Shown piece by piece: positions 1,662 to 19,821 of a stretch of 32,304 nucleotides of DNA (position 1 is its first letter; each line of letters starts with the position of its first letter). This DNA comes from Candidatus Rokuibacteriota bacterium (GTDB taxonomy: Bacteria; Methylomirabilota; Methylomirabilia; Rokubacteriales; CSP1-6): the NCBI GenBank assembly GCA_003221515.1, contig QHSI01000142.1, positions 23,723 through 56,026 of the forward strand. The letters are read 5' to 3'. The position numbers and the translations under genes are program-made. The notes below the pieces were generated by a model. It was not told the origin of the DNA, made no database searches, and saw only the letters and a list, made by a program, of their open reading frames with translations.

Positions 1662-2312
1662 CTAGGACTGCGCAGCGATCGAAAGTTGCGTGGCGAGATC
1701 TTGGACCAGGGGGGCGGCGCAGGCCGAGATCTGGGTGCGCGCCGTGGTGACCCACTCGCGTACCGCCAGTTCCGCAGCGTCGTCCAGGGCCAGGCGCGGC
1801 CGGTCGGCGAGGGCCCGCCGCACGCGTCCCGCCACGACGTCAGGCGCGATGTCGCCGACGATCGCGCCACGCTCCCGCAGCCGCTCGCGCAGGTGATCGA
1901 ACCGCACGCTCTGATCGTCGGAGGCCCAGGTGACGTGGCGCCCGAGCTCGCGCGGCGCGGCGGCGTCGATCGCCGCCAGGTAGGCCTGCTGCGCCAGCGC
2001 GTCGCCGGCCAGCGCGGCGTCGAGCAGGATCTCGACGCCGACGTGCGCCGCCGCCAGCGCGCTGCCGCTCCGCACCCCGCGCGCCGACAGCCACGTGACC
2101 GCCGCGTGGGTCAGAGCGCCGAACGCCGGCGAGCGGTGGAAGGCGTCGTCCGTCCTCCAGTGAAACCGCATGCCCAGGTCGATCGCCGTGTGCTCGGTCA
2201 ACGGCGGGCGCGCGCCGATCATCGTGGCGAAGTCCGGCAGCATCGCGCCCAGCACGAACGCGGGGTCGGCGCTCCGCCGGATCGCCAGCACGGCGTGCCC
2301 GAAGAAGTTCAC
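1662..2312 (-). CDS. AcpH-like (acyl-carrier-protein phosphodiesterase family) protein
   Basis: The 216-residue product starts MNFFGHAVLA and continues with a GAMLPDF segment (Asp27) and an RFHWRTDDAFH segment (His51, Asp55/Asp56, His59). This matches the N-terminal metal-site layout of ACP phosphodiesterase, an HD-like hydrolase that removes 4'-phosphopantetheine from acyl carrier protein (E. coli AcpH begins MNFLAHLHLA and has a similar HRRID segment). Length is close to the family norm of about 190-200. The start overlaps the stop of the upstream dehydrogenase by 4 nt, so it is co-translated with that gene. The family call is reasonably good, but the substrate could differ because the C-terminal half is divergent. 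Confidence 0.7.
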   Translation of the reverse strand: MNFFGHAVLAIRRSADPAFVLGAMLPDFATMIGARPPLTEHTAIDLGMRFHWRTDDAFHRSPAFGALTHAAVTWLSARGVRSGSALAAAHVGVEILLDAALAGDALAQQAYLAAIDAAAPRELGRHVTWASDDQSVRFDHLRERLRERGAIVGDIAPDVVAGRVRRALADRPRLALDDAAELAVREWVTTARTQISACAAPLVQDLATQLSIAAQS

Positions 2313-3379
2313 GCGGTGACTCGCTCGAGCAGCGCGGCGATCGCCTGGCCGACTTCGGACGTCGTCGCCCGGCCCCCGAGATCGCGCGTGACGGTCTTGC
2401 CCTCTTCGACGATGCGCTCCACCGCCGCGACGACCGCGCGCGCCGCGTCCGCGTGGCCGAGGTGTTCCAGCATCATCGCGCCCGTCCAGATCTGAGCAAC
2501 CGGATTCGCGAGCGCCTTGCCGGCGATGTCGGGCGCCGAGCCGTGCACCGGCTCGAACATCGAGGGGTACGCGCGCTCGGGGTTGATGTTGCCGCCCGGC
2601 GCCAGCCCGATGGAGCCGGCGATGGCCGGACCGAGATCGGAGAGGATGTCGCCGAAGAGATTTGAGCCGACGACCACGTCGAACCAGTCGGGGTGCTGCA
2701 CGAAGTGGGCGGTCAGGATGTCGATGTGGAACTGCGCGGTCTTGACGTCCGGGTAGTCCTTCGCGACCGCCGCGAAGCGCTCGTCCCAGTACGGCATGCT
2801 GTGGATGATCCCGTTCGACTTGGTCGCCGACGTCACGTGCCGCCGCGGCCGCTTCATCGCGAGCTCGAACGCGTAGCGCATGATCCGGTCACAGCCCGTG
2901 CGCGTGAAGACCGACTGCTGGACGGCCAGCTCTTCCGGCGTGCCCCGGTAGAGCCGCCCGCCGATCTCCGAGTACTCGCCCTCGTTGTTCTCGCGCACGA
3001 TCAGCATGTCGATGTCGGCCGGCCCGCGGCCGGCGAGCGGTGACTTGACGCCCTTGAGCAGACGGACCGGACGCAGGTTCACGTACTGGCGGAAGCCCCG
3101 GCGGATCGGGATCAAGAGCCCCCACAGCGACACGTGGTCCGGCACGCCGGGAAAGCCTACCGCGCCGAGAAAGATCCCCTCGAACAGCCTGAGCTGGTCG
3201 AGGCCGTCCTCGGGCATCATCCGGCCGGTCTGCGCGTAGCGCTCGCAGCTCCAGTCGAAGGTCGTCCACTCGATCTCGAACCCGAAGCGACGCCCGGCGG
3301 CGTCGAGTACGCGCATGCCCTCGGGCACGACTTCCTTGCCGATTCCGTCGCCGGGAATCGCGGCGATGCGATGCTTCAT
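2309..3379 (-). CDS. D-malate / tartrate dehydrogenase (isocitrate/isopropylmalate dehydrogenase family)
   Basis: A 356-residue NAD-dependent beta-hydroxyacid oxidative decarboxylase. The PGDGIG motif is at residues 9-14, substrate-carboxylate arginines lie around 93-106, the RENNEGEYSE loop is at about 129-138, catalytic Lys187 is in ATKSNG, and metal aspartates are at 220, 244 and 248 in FHID and NLFGDILSD. The loop wording fits D-malate/tartrate dehydrogenases (DmlA/TtuC) better than leucine-pathway LeuB, and no leu genes are nearby. A strong Shine-Dalgarno GGAGG precedes the ATG at 3379. It is the first gene of a two-gene minus-strand operon with the AcpH-like gene. The class is certain; D-malate versus tartrate specificity cannot be settled here. 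Confidence 0.9.
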   Translation of the reverse strand: MKHRIAAIPGDGIGKEVVPEGMRVLDAAGRRFGFEIEWTTFDWSCERYAQTGRMMPEDGLDQLRLFEGIFLGAVGFPGVPDHVSLWGLLIPIRRGFRQYVNLRPVRLLKGVKSPLAGRGPADIDMLIVRENNEGEYSEIGGRLYRGTPEELAVQQSVFTRTGCDRIMRYAFELAMKRPRRHVTSATKSNGIIHSMPYWDERFAAVAKDYPDVKTAQFHIDILTAHFVQHPDWFDVVVGSNLFGDILSDLGPAIAGSIGLAPGGNINPERAYPSMFEPVHGSAPDIAGKALANPVAQIWTGAMMLEHLGHADAARAVVAAVERIVEEGKTVTRDLGGRATTSEVGQAIAALLERVTA

Positions 3380-15848: not shown

Positions 15849-15896
15849 GGGTCCTCCCGTGTATAGTCAAGGTCCTATATACAGGAGAGGACCATG
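15846..15896. promoter_or_regulatory. Near-palindromic divergent promoter/operator spanning both start codons
   Basis: From the nitroreductase start (15846-15848) to the hydratase start (15894-15896), the sequence is almost its own reverse complement: both ends read CATGG(G)TCCTC, and the inner arms are GTGTATAG (15859-15866) and CTATATAC (15875-15882) around an 8-base centre. Plus-strand TATAGT (15862-15867) and minus-strand TATATA (15881-15876) would act as -10 boxes, each leaving about 20 nt of leader with its own ribosome site. The promoters overlap, so simultaneous occupancy is unlikely. GGTCCT (15871-15876) can also pair with AGGACC (15888-15893) just before the hydratase ATG. Confidence 0.5.
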
Positions 15897-16694
15897 ACCG
15901 ACTACAAGTGCTTGCTCTACGAGGTGAAGGACGCGGTCGCGACGCTGACGCTGAACCGGCCCGAGCGCCTCAACGCCCTCGGCGACACGCTGCGCGACGA
16001 TCTCTACGCCGCCGTGCTCAGGGCCAGCGGCGACGCCGACGTGCGCGTGATGATCGTGACTGGCGCCGGCAAGGGGTTCTGCGCGGGCGGTGACGTGAAG
16101 GCCATGAACGACACCAAGGAAGGTCGCGCCCCCGCGCGTCCGCTCGAGGACAAGGTGGCGCCGCTGCGCGACCGGGTGCTGCTCGCCATGCGCGACGCGC
16201 CGAAGCCGGTGATCGCGGCGGTGAACGGCGCCGCCGCCGGCGCCGGCATGAACCTGGCGCTCGGCTGCGACATCCGGCTGGCCTCGACCGCGGCGAAGTT
16301 CACCCAGGCGTTCGTCAAGCGCGGCCTGCATCCCGACTGGGGCGGGACGTATTTCCTGCCGCGCCTGGTCGGCATGGCGAAAGCGTGCGAGCTCATCTTC
16401 ACCGGCGAGATCATCGACGCCCAGGAGGCGCTCCGGCTCGGGATCGTGAACGCGGTCTACCAGCCCGAGGAGCTCCTGCCGGCCACCTACGAGCTGGCGC
16501 GGAAGATCGCGGCCGGCCCGCCCGTGGCGATCCGCCTGGCCAAGCGCGCGCTCTACCACAGCGAGGAGTCGGACCTGCGCGGCGCGCTGGAGTTCGAGAC
16601 GTTCGCCCAGAACGTGTGCTCGGAGACGGAGGACGCGCGCGAGGGCATCAAGGCGTTCGTCGAGAAGCGCGCGCCCCAGTTCAAGGGGCGCTAG
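15894..16694 (+). CDS. Enoyl-CoA hydratase/isomerase (crotonase family, PaaG-like)
   Basis: A 266-residue crotonase-fold enzyme acting on acyl-CoA. The oxyanion-hole segments are GFCAGGDVKAM (61-71) and NGAAAGAGMNLALGCD (111-126). The catalytic acid position carries Asp148 in LHPDWGGTYFLPRLVG, as in PaaG-type isomerases (2-(1,2-epoxy-1,2-dihydrophenyl)acetyl-CoA isomerase) and related hydratases rather than the Glu/Glu pair of classic hydratases. The C-terminal SETEDAREGIKAFVEKRAPQFKGR tail is the usual family ending. AGGAGAGG just upstream fixes ATG 15894. It is a single gene, divergent from the nitroreductase and converging with the dehalogenase-like gene. The fold is certain; the substrate is open, with no paa genes nearby. 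Confidence 0.92.
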   Translation: MTDYKCLLYEVKDAVATLTLNRPERLNALGDTLRDDLYAAVLRASGDADVRVMIVTGAGKGFCAGGDVKAMNDTKEGRAPARPLEDKVAPLRDRVLLAMRDAPKPVIAAVNGAAAGAGMNLALGCDIRLASTAAKFTQAFVKRGLHPDWGGTYFLPRLVGMAKACELIFTGEIIDAQEALRLGIVNAVYQPEELLPATYELARKIAAGPPVAIRLAKRALYHSEESDLRGALEFETFAQNVCSETEDAREGIKAFVEKRAPQFKGR

Positions 16695-16711
16695 GGGATC
16701 GTCGCGCCTGC

Positions 16712-17590
16712 TCAGCGCTTGAAGAACTCGTCGAGCTCCTGGTACGTCAGGTCCGGCGCCTCCTCCATCGGATAGTGCGCGCACGGCAGCATGCGCATCT
16801 TGTAGATGTTCGAGCAGTAGTGCGGCCACACCTCGCGCGCGTTGAACTCGCGCTGGGTATGGCTCTTCTCCGCCCAGAGGATGAGCGACGGGCACTCGAT
16901 CTTGCGGCCGGCGTCGTAGTCGGCGGTGTCCATCGGGAAGTCGACCGCCAGCGTGGCGCGATAGTCCGAGCAGACGCCGTGGATCTGCTCCGGCGTGCAG
17001 CAGCGCAGGTATTCCTTCATCGTCTCGTCGCTGATCTTGCCCTCGCCCTGCTTGGCGAACTTCTTCCGCATGTAGTACTCCTCGTTCCCCCGCAGCAGCG
17101 TCTCGGGAAAGTCGTAGGGCTGCGCCAGGAAGAACCAGTGGTACGAATACGCGGCGTACGTCCACTTCATGTTGGTCAGCTGCCAGTGCGTCGGGATGAT
17201 GTCGATACTGCAAAATTTGGCCACACGCTCGGGATGGTCGAGCGCCATGCGAAACGCCGTGCGCGCGCCTCGATCGTGCCCGGCCACGTAGAACCGCTCG
17301 AAGCCGAGATGCTTCATCACCTCGACCTGGTCCTGGGCCATGCGGCGGAACGTGTAGTTGCTGTGATCCGCCCTGCCGCGCGGCTTCCCGCTGTCGCCGT
17401 AGCCGCGCAGGTCGGCACAGACGACCGTGAAGTCCTTCGCGAGCCGCGGCGCGATCAGGTACCACGTCACCAGTGTCAACGGATTCCCGTGCAGCAAGAG
17501 CACCGGCGGCCCGCTGCCACCGTATCTGAGGTTGATCGCGCACTCGGGATCGCTGGTCTGGACCTGGATGTGCTTGAACCCTTCGAACAT
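16712..17590 (-). CDS. Alpha/beta hydrolase resembling fluoroacetate/haloacetate dehalogenase
   Basis: A 292-residue alpha/beta hydrolase. The nucleophile elbow is GHDRGAR, with Asp106 as nucleophile and Arg107/Arg110 placed to bind a carboxylate. Asp130 and His272 (AHYPMEEAP) complete the catalytic set. A YHWFFLAQP segment supplies His151 and Trp152, and SDYRA supplies Tyr210. These match, in order and nearly in spacing, the Asp110, Arg111, Arg114, Asp134, His155, Trp156, Tyr219 and His280 of the Rhodopseudomonas fluoroacetate dehalogenase as I recall them, including the fluoride pocket. The start at ATG 17590 has an AGGA ribosome site. It lies 59 bases after a cupin gene. Other haloalkanoates or an epoxide remain possible substrates, but the carboxylate arginines favour a haloacid. 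Confidence 0.85.
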   Translation of the reverse strand: MFEGFKHIQVQTSDPECAINLRYGGSGPPVLLLHGNPLTLVTWYLIAPRLAKDFTVVCADLRGYGDSGKPRGRADHSNYTFRRMAQDQVEVMKHLGFERFYVAGHDRGARTAFRMALDHPERVAKFCSIDIIPTHWQLTNMKWTYAAYSYHWFFLAQPYDFPETLLRGNEEYYMRKKFAKQGEGKISDETMKEYLRCCTPEQIHGVCSDYRATLAVDFPMDTADYDAGRKIECPSLILWAEKSHTQREFNAREVWPHYCSNIYKMRMLPCAHYPMEEAPDLTYQELDEFFKR

Positions 17591-17649
17591 GGTCGTCCTC
17601 TCTCCAGCAAGGGGTTGCGGCGGGAGCGGCCGGCGGCGTCGGTAGAGCG

Positions 17650-18138
17650 CTAGGTCTTCATGCCGTGGTCGCGATCGAGCGCGCGCTCGTTCTCGGGTCG
17701 CGCGAACGGCGCGGGCGCCGGCTCGCCCGGGGTGCGCGGCCGGCCGATCGCCTCGAAGAAGTCCTCGAGCCCGGCCGGTGAGACCAGCCAGAGCATCACG
17801 AGCTCCTCGTCGGTCTCGTTGATGATCTCGTGCTTGACGTCGTAGCCGAGGAAGCACGCGGTGCCCGGCACCAGCGGATGGCTCACGCCGTCCACGACCA
17901 CGCGCCCGCGCCCGCTGAAGCAGATCTGCAGCTCGATCTGGTCGCCGTGCGAGTGTTCGCGCACACGGCTGCGCGGCGCGATGGTCTGGTAGCCCATCGA
18001 GAGGTCGCCGTATCGTGTATTAGCGGGCGTGAGCTTCGGATCCGCGTGGCCGTTGGCCGGCACCGGCTGCCAGAACGACGCGCCCTCGGTCGGCTGGATC
18101 ACGGTCGCACGCCCCCGGACGGTCTCGGCTGAGCTCAT
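17650..18138 (-). CDS. Single-domain cupin protein
   Basis: A 162-residue cupin. Metal residues of cupin motif 1 are visible as EHSHGDQIELQICFSG (His62, His64, Glu69), and motif 2 has His103 (VKHEIINE) in a PGTACFLGYDVKHE context. The tail (residues 135-162) is Pro/Ala-rich and charged. Such proteins are often small-molecule dioxygenases, isomerases or metabolite-binding sensors; no DNA-binding domain is attached. Its ATG is 6 bases after the glnS stop, with AGGGG at suitable spacing, so it is in the glnS operon, and the dehalogenase-like gene follows by 59 bases. The function is unknown; a pairing with the dehalogenase is only contextual. Confidence 0.83.
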   Translation of the reverse strand: MSSAETVRGRATVIQPTEGASFWQPVPANGHADPKLTPANTRYGDLSMGYQTIAPRSRVREHSHGDQIELQICFSGRGRVVVDGVSHPLVPGTACFLGYDVKHEIINETDEELVMLWLVSPAGLEDFFEAIGRPRTPGEPAPAPFARPENERALDRDHGMKT

Positions 18139-18144
18139 CGTCGT

Positions 18145-19821
<1,677 letters not shown>

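Follow-up and report, generated by a model that had tools for sequence, protein, structure and literature searches.

A gene for an α/β hydrolase of the fluoroacetate dehalogenase (FAcD) branch lies in the stretch of DNA analyzed here, which comprises 32,304 nucleotides from the metagenome-assembled genome of a soil Candidatus Rokuibacteriota bacterium (the window). The prospects seem about even that this protein uses an aspartate nucleophile on a natural substrate that is polar, probably a larger α-substituted acid, and that is not fluoroacetate. The first-pass annotation had taken a set of eight active-site residues as the mark of a fluoroacetate-cleaving enzyme. The residues are indeed there, but they do not prove the substrate, because the wall of the pocket differs at positions critical in the enzyme FAcD-H1 (H1) and the gene neighbors of relatives suggest hydroxy-dicarboxylates. 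Fluoroacetate is unlikely to be the natural substrate. Some activity on fluoroacetate or chloroacetate in vitro is plausible as promiscuity, and indeed quite possible, because several diverged FAcD members show such turnover.

Attack by the aspartate on the α carbon of a carboxylate held by arginine is well supported by analogy with characterized members of the family. In the scheme that we favor for this presumably cytoplasmic enzyme, Arg107 and Arg110 would clamp the substrate carboxylate while Asp106 attacks the α carbon in an SN2 reaction and displaces a leaving group stabilized by His151, Trp152, and Tyr210. Water activated via His272 and Asp130 would then hydrolyze the ester intermediate to release a 2-hydroxy acid. 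The leaving group would be a halide, or possibly an epoxide oxygen. Perhaps the substrate is dicarboxylic, and the product would be a hydroxy acid resembling malate or tartrate.

The features of the gene and its neighbors are collected in Table 1. The segment AGAGAGGA, located 5′ of the ATG, is likely a ribosome-binding site. The gene is under purifying selection, with dN of 0.14, dS of 0.88, and dN/dS of about 0.16 in comparison with its nearest relative (L009). Its G+C content of 63.5% is below that of most neighbors (about 70%).

Table 1. Features of the hydrolase gene and adjacent genes, in window coordinates.
Feature	Position	Strand	Basis or remark
FAcD-like α/β hydrolase gene, 292 aa	16712–17590	−	Intact ORF; stop codon ends at 16712, ATG at 17590
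HGNP motif, H34-G35-N36-P37	17480–17491	−	Alignment; coordinates derived from residue numbers
DRGARTAFR: Asp106 nucleophile, Arg107 and Arg110 carboxylate-binding, third Arg114	17249–17275	−	Alignment to RPA1163 D110/R111/R114/R118
Asp130, charge-relay acid (= RPA1163 D134)	17201–17203	−	Alignment
His151-Trp152, halide pocket (= RPA1163 H155/W156)	17135–17140	−	Alignment; role: PMC11022551
Gln181 at RPA1163 Trp185 / H1 Trp180 position	17048–17050	−	Alignment, gap-free match to NOS0089
Tyr210, halide pocket (= RPA1163 Y219)	16961–16963	−	Alignment
Ser243-His244-Thr245 loop, clade-conserved	16856–16864	−	Alignment
His272, catalytic base (= RPA1163 H280)	16775–16777	−	Alignment
Small cupin, upstream of hydrolase	17650–18138	−	Pfam Cupin_2
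glnS, glutaminyl-tRNA synthetase	18145–19821	−	Pfam tRNA-synt_1c
Enoyl-CoA hydratase, convergent with hydrolase	15894–16694	+	Pfam ECH_1

The evidence that the protein belongs to the FAcD-type α/β hydrolases is strong. It is 48% identical to NOS0089/Alr0039, 43% to FA1, 41% to RPA1163, 40% to DeHa4/9C9F, and 38% to DAR3835, and phmmer returns E values of 1.3e-82 to 3QYJ and 2.2e-69 to 1Y37. FAcDs form homodimers with coupled protomers; the AlphaFold2 model, made of a monomer, has a pLDDT of 89.9, weaker at residues 151-190, and its top Foldseek matches (3QYJ, 1Y37, 3R3U, and 9C9F, each with a TM of about 0.92) are all FAcDs or close homologs. The DRxxRxxxR signature, which separates FAcDs from epoxide hydrolases (PMC7429986), is present as D106, R107, R110, and R114. 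Among the papers searched, none tied HGNP to FAcD, or Rokubacteria to FAcD.

All eight residues named in the first-pass annotation are found at the expected numbers, and each pairs with its RPA1163 counterpart: D106/D110, R107/R111, R110/R114, D130/D134, H151/H155, W152/W156, Y210/Y219, and H272/H280. Thus, by alignment, the Asp-His-Asp triad (D106, H272, and D130) and the halide-binding residues (H151, W152, and Y210) are in place, as is Arg114, the third arginine of the signature. At this level, His151 and Trp152 fall inside the halide pocket rather than outside it. The reference sequences used (RPA1163, FA1, NOS0089, DAR3835, and DeHa4) were taken from PDB search outputs. According to its PDB title, the Pseudomonas aeruginosa reference 4BAT carries the mutation T131D, and therefore its apparent full set says nothing about the wild type.

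The presence of this core is far above chance, yet it is a family trait and nothing special to the window gene, since 45 of 66 aligned rows have all of it, among them a paralog from the same genome (L003). Rarity of the residue set is not supported; the set is widespread, with homologs at E≤1e-40 in 24 of 59 relatives and at E≤1e-30 in 358 plasmid records. Likewise, the spacing of 45 between nucleophile and halide-pocket histidine is real, but it is invariant in 65 of 65 homologs and so does not discriminate.

Several homologs depart from this pattern or are of interest in their own right. L003 (G000:C48:12819-13604) and its orthologs are found across many of the family's genomes, where they are better conserved than the window gene. 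Another homolog in the same genome, L002 (G000:C92:32440-33273), has Asn at the Asp134 position and Pro at the His155 position. Proline in place of the halide-pocket histidine, with the Trp and Arg residues kept, is a feature of L002, L045, L046, L048, L049, and L063. The betaproteobacterial orthologs L010-L018 have Glu as the relay residue at the Asp134 position as well as HGNP, both of which are features of LinB-type haloalkane dehalogenases. Some Rokubacteria orthologs (L043/L068 in genome G007 and L044/L072 in G003) appear to be broken or truncated, in that the match stops at residue 221 or about 40 internal residues are missing, by decay or assembly error.

The pocket wall is where the protein differs from characterized FAcDs. 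Asn36 replaces Phe40 of RPA1163, giving HGNP where characterized FAcDs carry HGFP, HGYP, or HGHP. The position of RPA1163 Trp185 is occupied by Gln181, in a stretch that aligns without gaps to NOS0089. Where a loop of H1 has Gln245-Met246, the window protein has His244-Thr245, and at Ser243-His244-Thr245 the characterized enzymes have Gly plus mostly apolar residues. Therefore, although the eight residues are present, the set that had been called complete lacks the tryptophan (RPA1163 W185 / H1 W180) and the methionine (H1 M246), having Gln181 and Thr245 instead. The new wall is a property of a clade. HGNP is kept in all members, the Trp is replaced by a polar residue, Met, or Pro, and the loop reads Ser-His-Thr or Ser-His-Cys in those members that were inspected, which come from Rokubacteria, Betaproteobacteria, and plasmids of rhizobia. 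An Acetobacteraceae group has HGNP without the Ser-His-Thr/Cys loop, and support for the clade defined by the wall signature is 99/93 with this group and 100/99 without it.

These substitutions bear on whether the protein is a genuine fluoroacetate or haloacetate dehalogenase, with conversion of fluoroacetate to glycolate and fluoride as its physiological or main activity, which we consider unlikely. When FAcD-H1 was subjected to selection on 2-fluoropropionate, Trp180 and Met246 were retained almost exclusively and were reported to be critical for growth (PMC12955510), whereas the corresponding residues here are Gln and Thr. Yet these two residues are not universal in the family. DeHa4 (9C9F) is regarded as a fluoroacetate-cleaving enzyme (PMC12184663) and is active despite lacking an equivalent of Trp185 and having HGHP, and therefore changes in the wall do not exclude fluoroacetate. 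Also consistent with dehalogenation is the presence of every catalytic, carboxylate-binding, and halide-pocket residue, including Trp152, whose equivalent is required for defluorination in FA1 (PMC11022551), and the fact that NOS0089, the best solved relative, defluorinates. A gene for the CrcB fluoride channel is found in the genome, but CrcB is nearly universal (10 of 14 control genomes) and hence uninformative. Moreover, no glycolate or fluoride genes lie near the hydrolase gene, and the failure to find a fluoride riboswitch in the window's genome also counts against this possibility.

The gene neighborhoods of relatives point to other substrates. Among the nine betaproteobacterial loci L010-L018, an Ldh_2 dehydrogenase gene is divergent from the hydrolase gene in eight (in the ninth, this position is beyond the contig end), TctC follows in all nine, and a GntR/FCD regulator and an SMP-30-like gene are located farther along. 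A LEU3-type dehydrogenase gene is directly downstream in the nearest relative (L009, positions 1234-2298) and at a distance of up to about 4 kb in L013, L016, and L018. In two rhizobia, Phyllobacterium zundukense and Neorhizobium sp. NCHU2750, the plasmid-borne homolog is flanked by genes for a tartrate dehydrogenase, which in both cases exceeds the TIGR02089 cutoff, and a LEU3-type dehydrogenase; PdxA, MmgE/PrpD, and TctA are encoded nearby as well. These tartrate- and isopropylmalate-type genes suggest hydroxy-dicarboxylate metabolism. Together, the remodeled wall and the hydroxy-acid dehydrogenases beside relatives make a polar α-substituted acid a likelier substrate than fluoroacetate. However, the association with dehydrogenases must be discounted because each beta genome carries 6-9 LEU3-family genes, and the proximity of TctC is weaker evidence than it appears because TctC is abundant in Burkholderiales. 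The context is also not constant, which is a point against our preferred explanation. The Rokubacteria orthologs that are 60-63% identical to the window protein are accompanied by genes for an α/β hydrolase, a luciferase-like monooxygenase, a GSDH protein, and a methyltransferase, and in the window the neighbors are glnS and the cupin gene.

The window itself encodes a tartrate dehydrogenase at 2312-3379 on the minus strand (TIGR02089 score of 565 bits versus a cutoff of 470) that shares 62% identity with the tartrate dehydrogenase encoded next to the homolog on the Phyllobacterium plasmid. It is about 13 kb from the hydrolase gene, and no operon is implied.

The tartrate dehydrogenases that accompany homologs on the two rhizobial plasmids also fit an epoxide hydrolase specific for carboxylates, acting for example on 2,3-epoxysuccinate to give tartrate, but we find this possibility doubtful. 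Asp106 would open the ring at the α carbon, with one carboxylate held by the two arginines, and the His and Tyr of the halide pocket would be putative ring-opening acids; the likeness of His151 and Tyr210 to the Cif pair is likewise putative. The polar pocket wall agrees with such a role, and there is a precedent in the L(+)-cis-epoxysuccinate hydrolases, which are approximately 30% identical to L-2-haloacid dehalogenase (PMC6429283). However, no member is known to act on an epoxide. In addition, α/β epoxide hydrolases have an aromatic X in HGXP, an aromatic residue after the nucleophile, and no DRxxRxxxR (PMC7429986), and the window protein breaks all of these rules, with a nonaromatic residue in HGNP, Arg107 after the nucleophile, and DRGARTAFR.

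Perhaps the clade with HGNP and Ser-His-[Thr or Cys] uses the FAcD scaffold for a function of its own, namely the hydrolysis of α-halo or 2,3-epoxy dicarboxylates, although we regard this as unlikely. Halosuccinate, epoxysuccinate, or a similar compound would be converted to a malate- or tartrate-type acid. Tripartite tricarboxylate transporters might take up the acid, and tartrate/isopropylmalate-type dehydrogenases might oxidize it. If true, the clade would be an α/β-fold equivalent of the cis-epoxysuccinate hydrolases described so far, whose ancestries are different.

A lactonase-family (SGL) gene near the betaproteobacterial orthologs raises the question of whether the protein is an esterase, lactonase, or broad hydrolase in which an FAcD-like core has simply been retained. 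A hydrolase from Serratia exemplifies such breadth by combining esterase, dehalogenase, and deformylase activities (PMC13230308). Its nucleophile, however, is Ser rather than Asp, and the S101D change reduced its esterase activity. Because Asp106 and the Arg clamp favor alkyl-enzyme chemistry, we consider this explanation very unlikely.

The position of the gene behind glnS and a cupin gene had been described as an odd operon placement for a catabolic gene. The gene does lie there, but the position carries no operon meaning and reflects a lineage-specific arrival behind a conserved pair. The glnS and cupin genes are adjacent in six sampled genus members, among which only the window's genome and G002 (98% identical over 93 residues before the contig end) have the hydrolase gene 3′ of the cupin gene. 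In G003, G005, G006, and G007, this site holds 2.0-4.7 kb of unrelated genes, including those for HATPase, L-PSP, and BON proteins, and collinearity resumes at the convergent enoyl-CoA hydratase gene. Because the pair is conserved without the hydrolase gene and the slot holds other genes, the position is accidental and uninformative about function, and an operon logic joining glnS, cupin, and hydrolase can be dismissed. A misbinned betaproteobacterial contig can also be set aside because on both sides the gene order follows that of other genus members, at about 75-86% DNA identity. The gap between the cupin and enoyl-CoA hydratase genes is a variable spot whose occupants (HATPase, L-PSP, BON, or the FAcD-like hydrolase) differ by species (window 16700-17650; L084 5683-8677; L085 1272-5964; L086 5138-7176; L087 5778-9356).

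In the phylogenetic tree, the window protein groups with L009 (80% identical) and nine betaproteobacterial or related metagenome-assembled sequences (support 100/100), apart from the more distant Rokubacteria orthologs noted above. This grouping suggests transfer of the gene between phyla, probably toward the Rokubacteria lineage of the window, with the caveat that binning errors are possible in short contigs such as that of L009 (3.4 kb).

Among known systems, the Nostoc enzyme NOS0089 (3QYJ) is the best solved relative, its 48% identity extending over the whole length, sharing the eight-residue core, the arginine signature, and the fold, but it has HGYP, the Trp, and a G-I-I loop rather than HGNP, Gln181, and S-H-T. 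RPA1163 (3R3U), FA1 (1Y37), and FAcD-H1 have the same catalytic, carboxylate, and halide residues and differ in the wall (Phe40 to Asn36, Trp185 to Gln181, and H1 Met246 to Thr245) and in gene context, which is tartrate/isopropylmalate-like for relatives of the window protein. DeHa4, from Delftia acidovorans D4B, shares the core and the lack of a Trp185 equivalent, but has HGHP and a G-V-V loop. HGNP suggested a haloalkane dehalogenase, and Asn36 would supply half of the halide-binding pair of those enzymes. We rejected this candidate on its NF002938 score (62 bits versus a cutoff of 241), identity, and Arg107. LinB (1CV2) has HGNP and an Asp nucleophile, and the Glu at its E132 position is also seen in the betaproteobacterial orthologs, but it is only 22.6% identical, and its halide-binding Trp after the nucleophile is Arg in the window protein. 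Closer are the product of dehH (AYD03661.1) on the Neorhizobium plasmid and its Phyllobacterium homolog, which are 52-54% identical and share HGNP and the absence of Trp at 181, with an S-H-C loop, but are encoded in a cluster with TctA, tartrate dehydrogenase, and LEU3-type dehydrogenase genes rather than behind glnS. As with dehH, genes of the FAcD type routinely receive the name haloacetate dehalogenase and are counted as capacity for C-F cleavage. If the core recurs in most homologs while wall and context differ, then residue lists overstate the defluorination potential of metagenomes. The clade of the window protein is one in which a switch of substrate on this scaffold can be tested.
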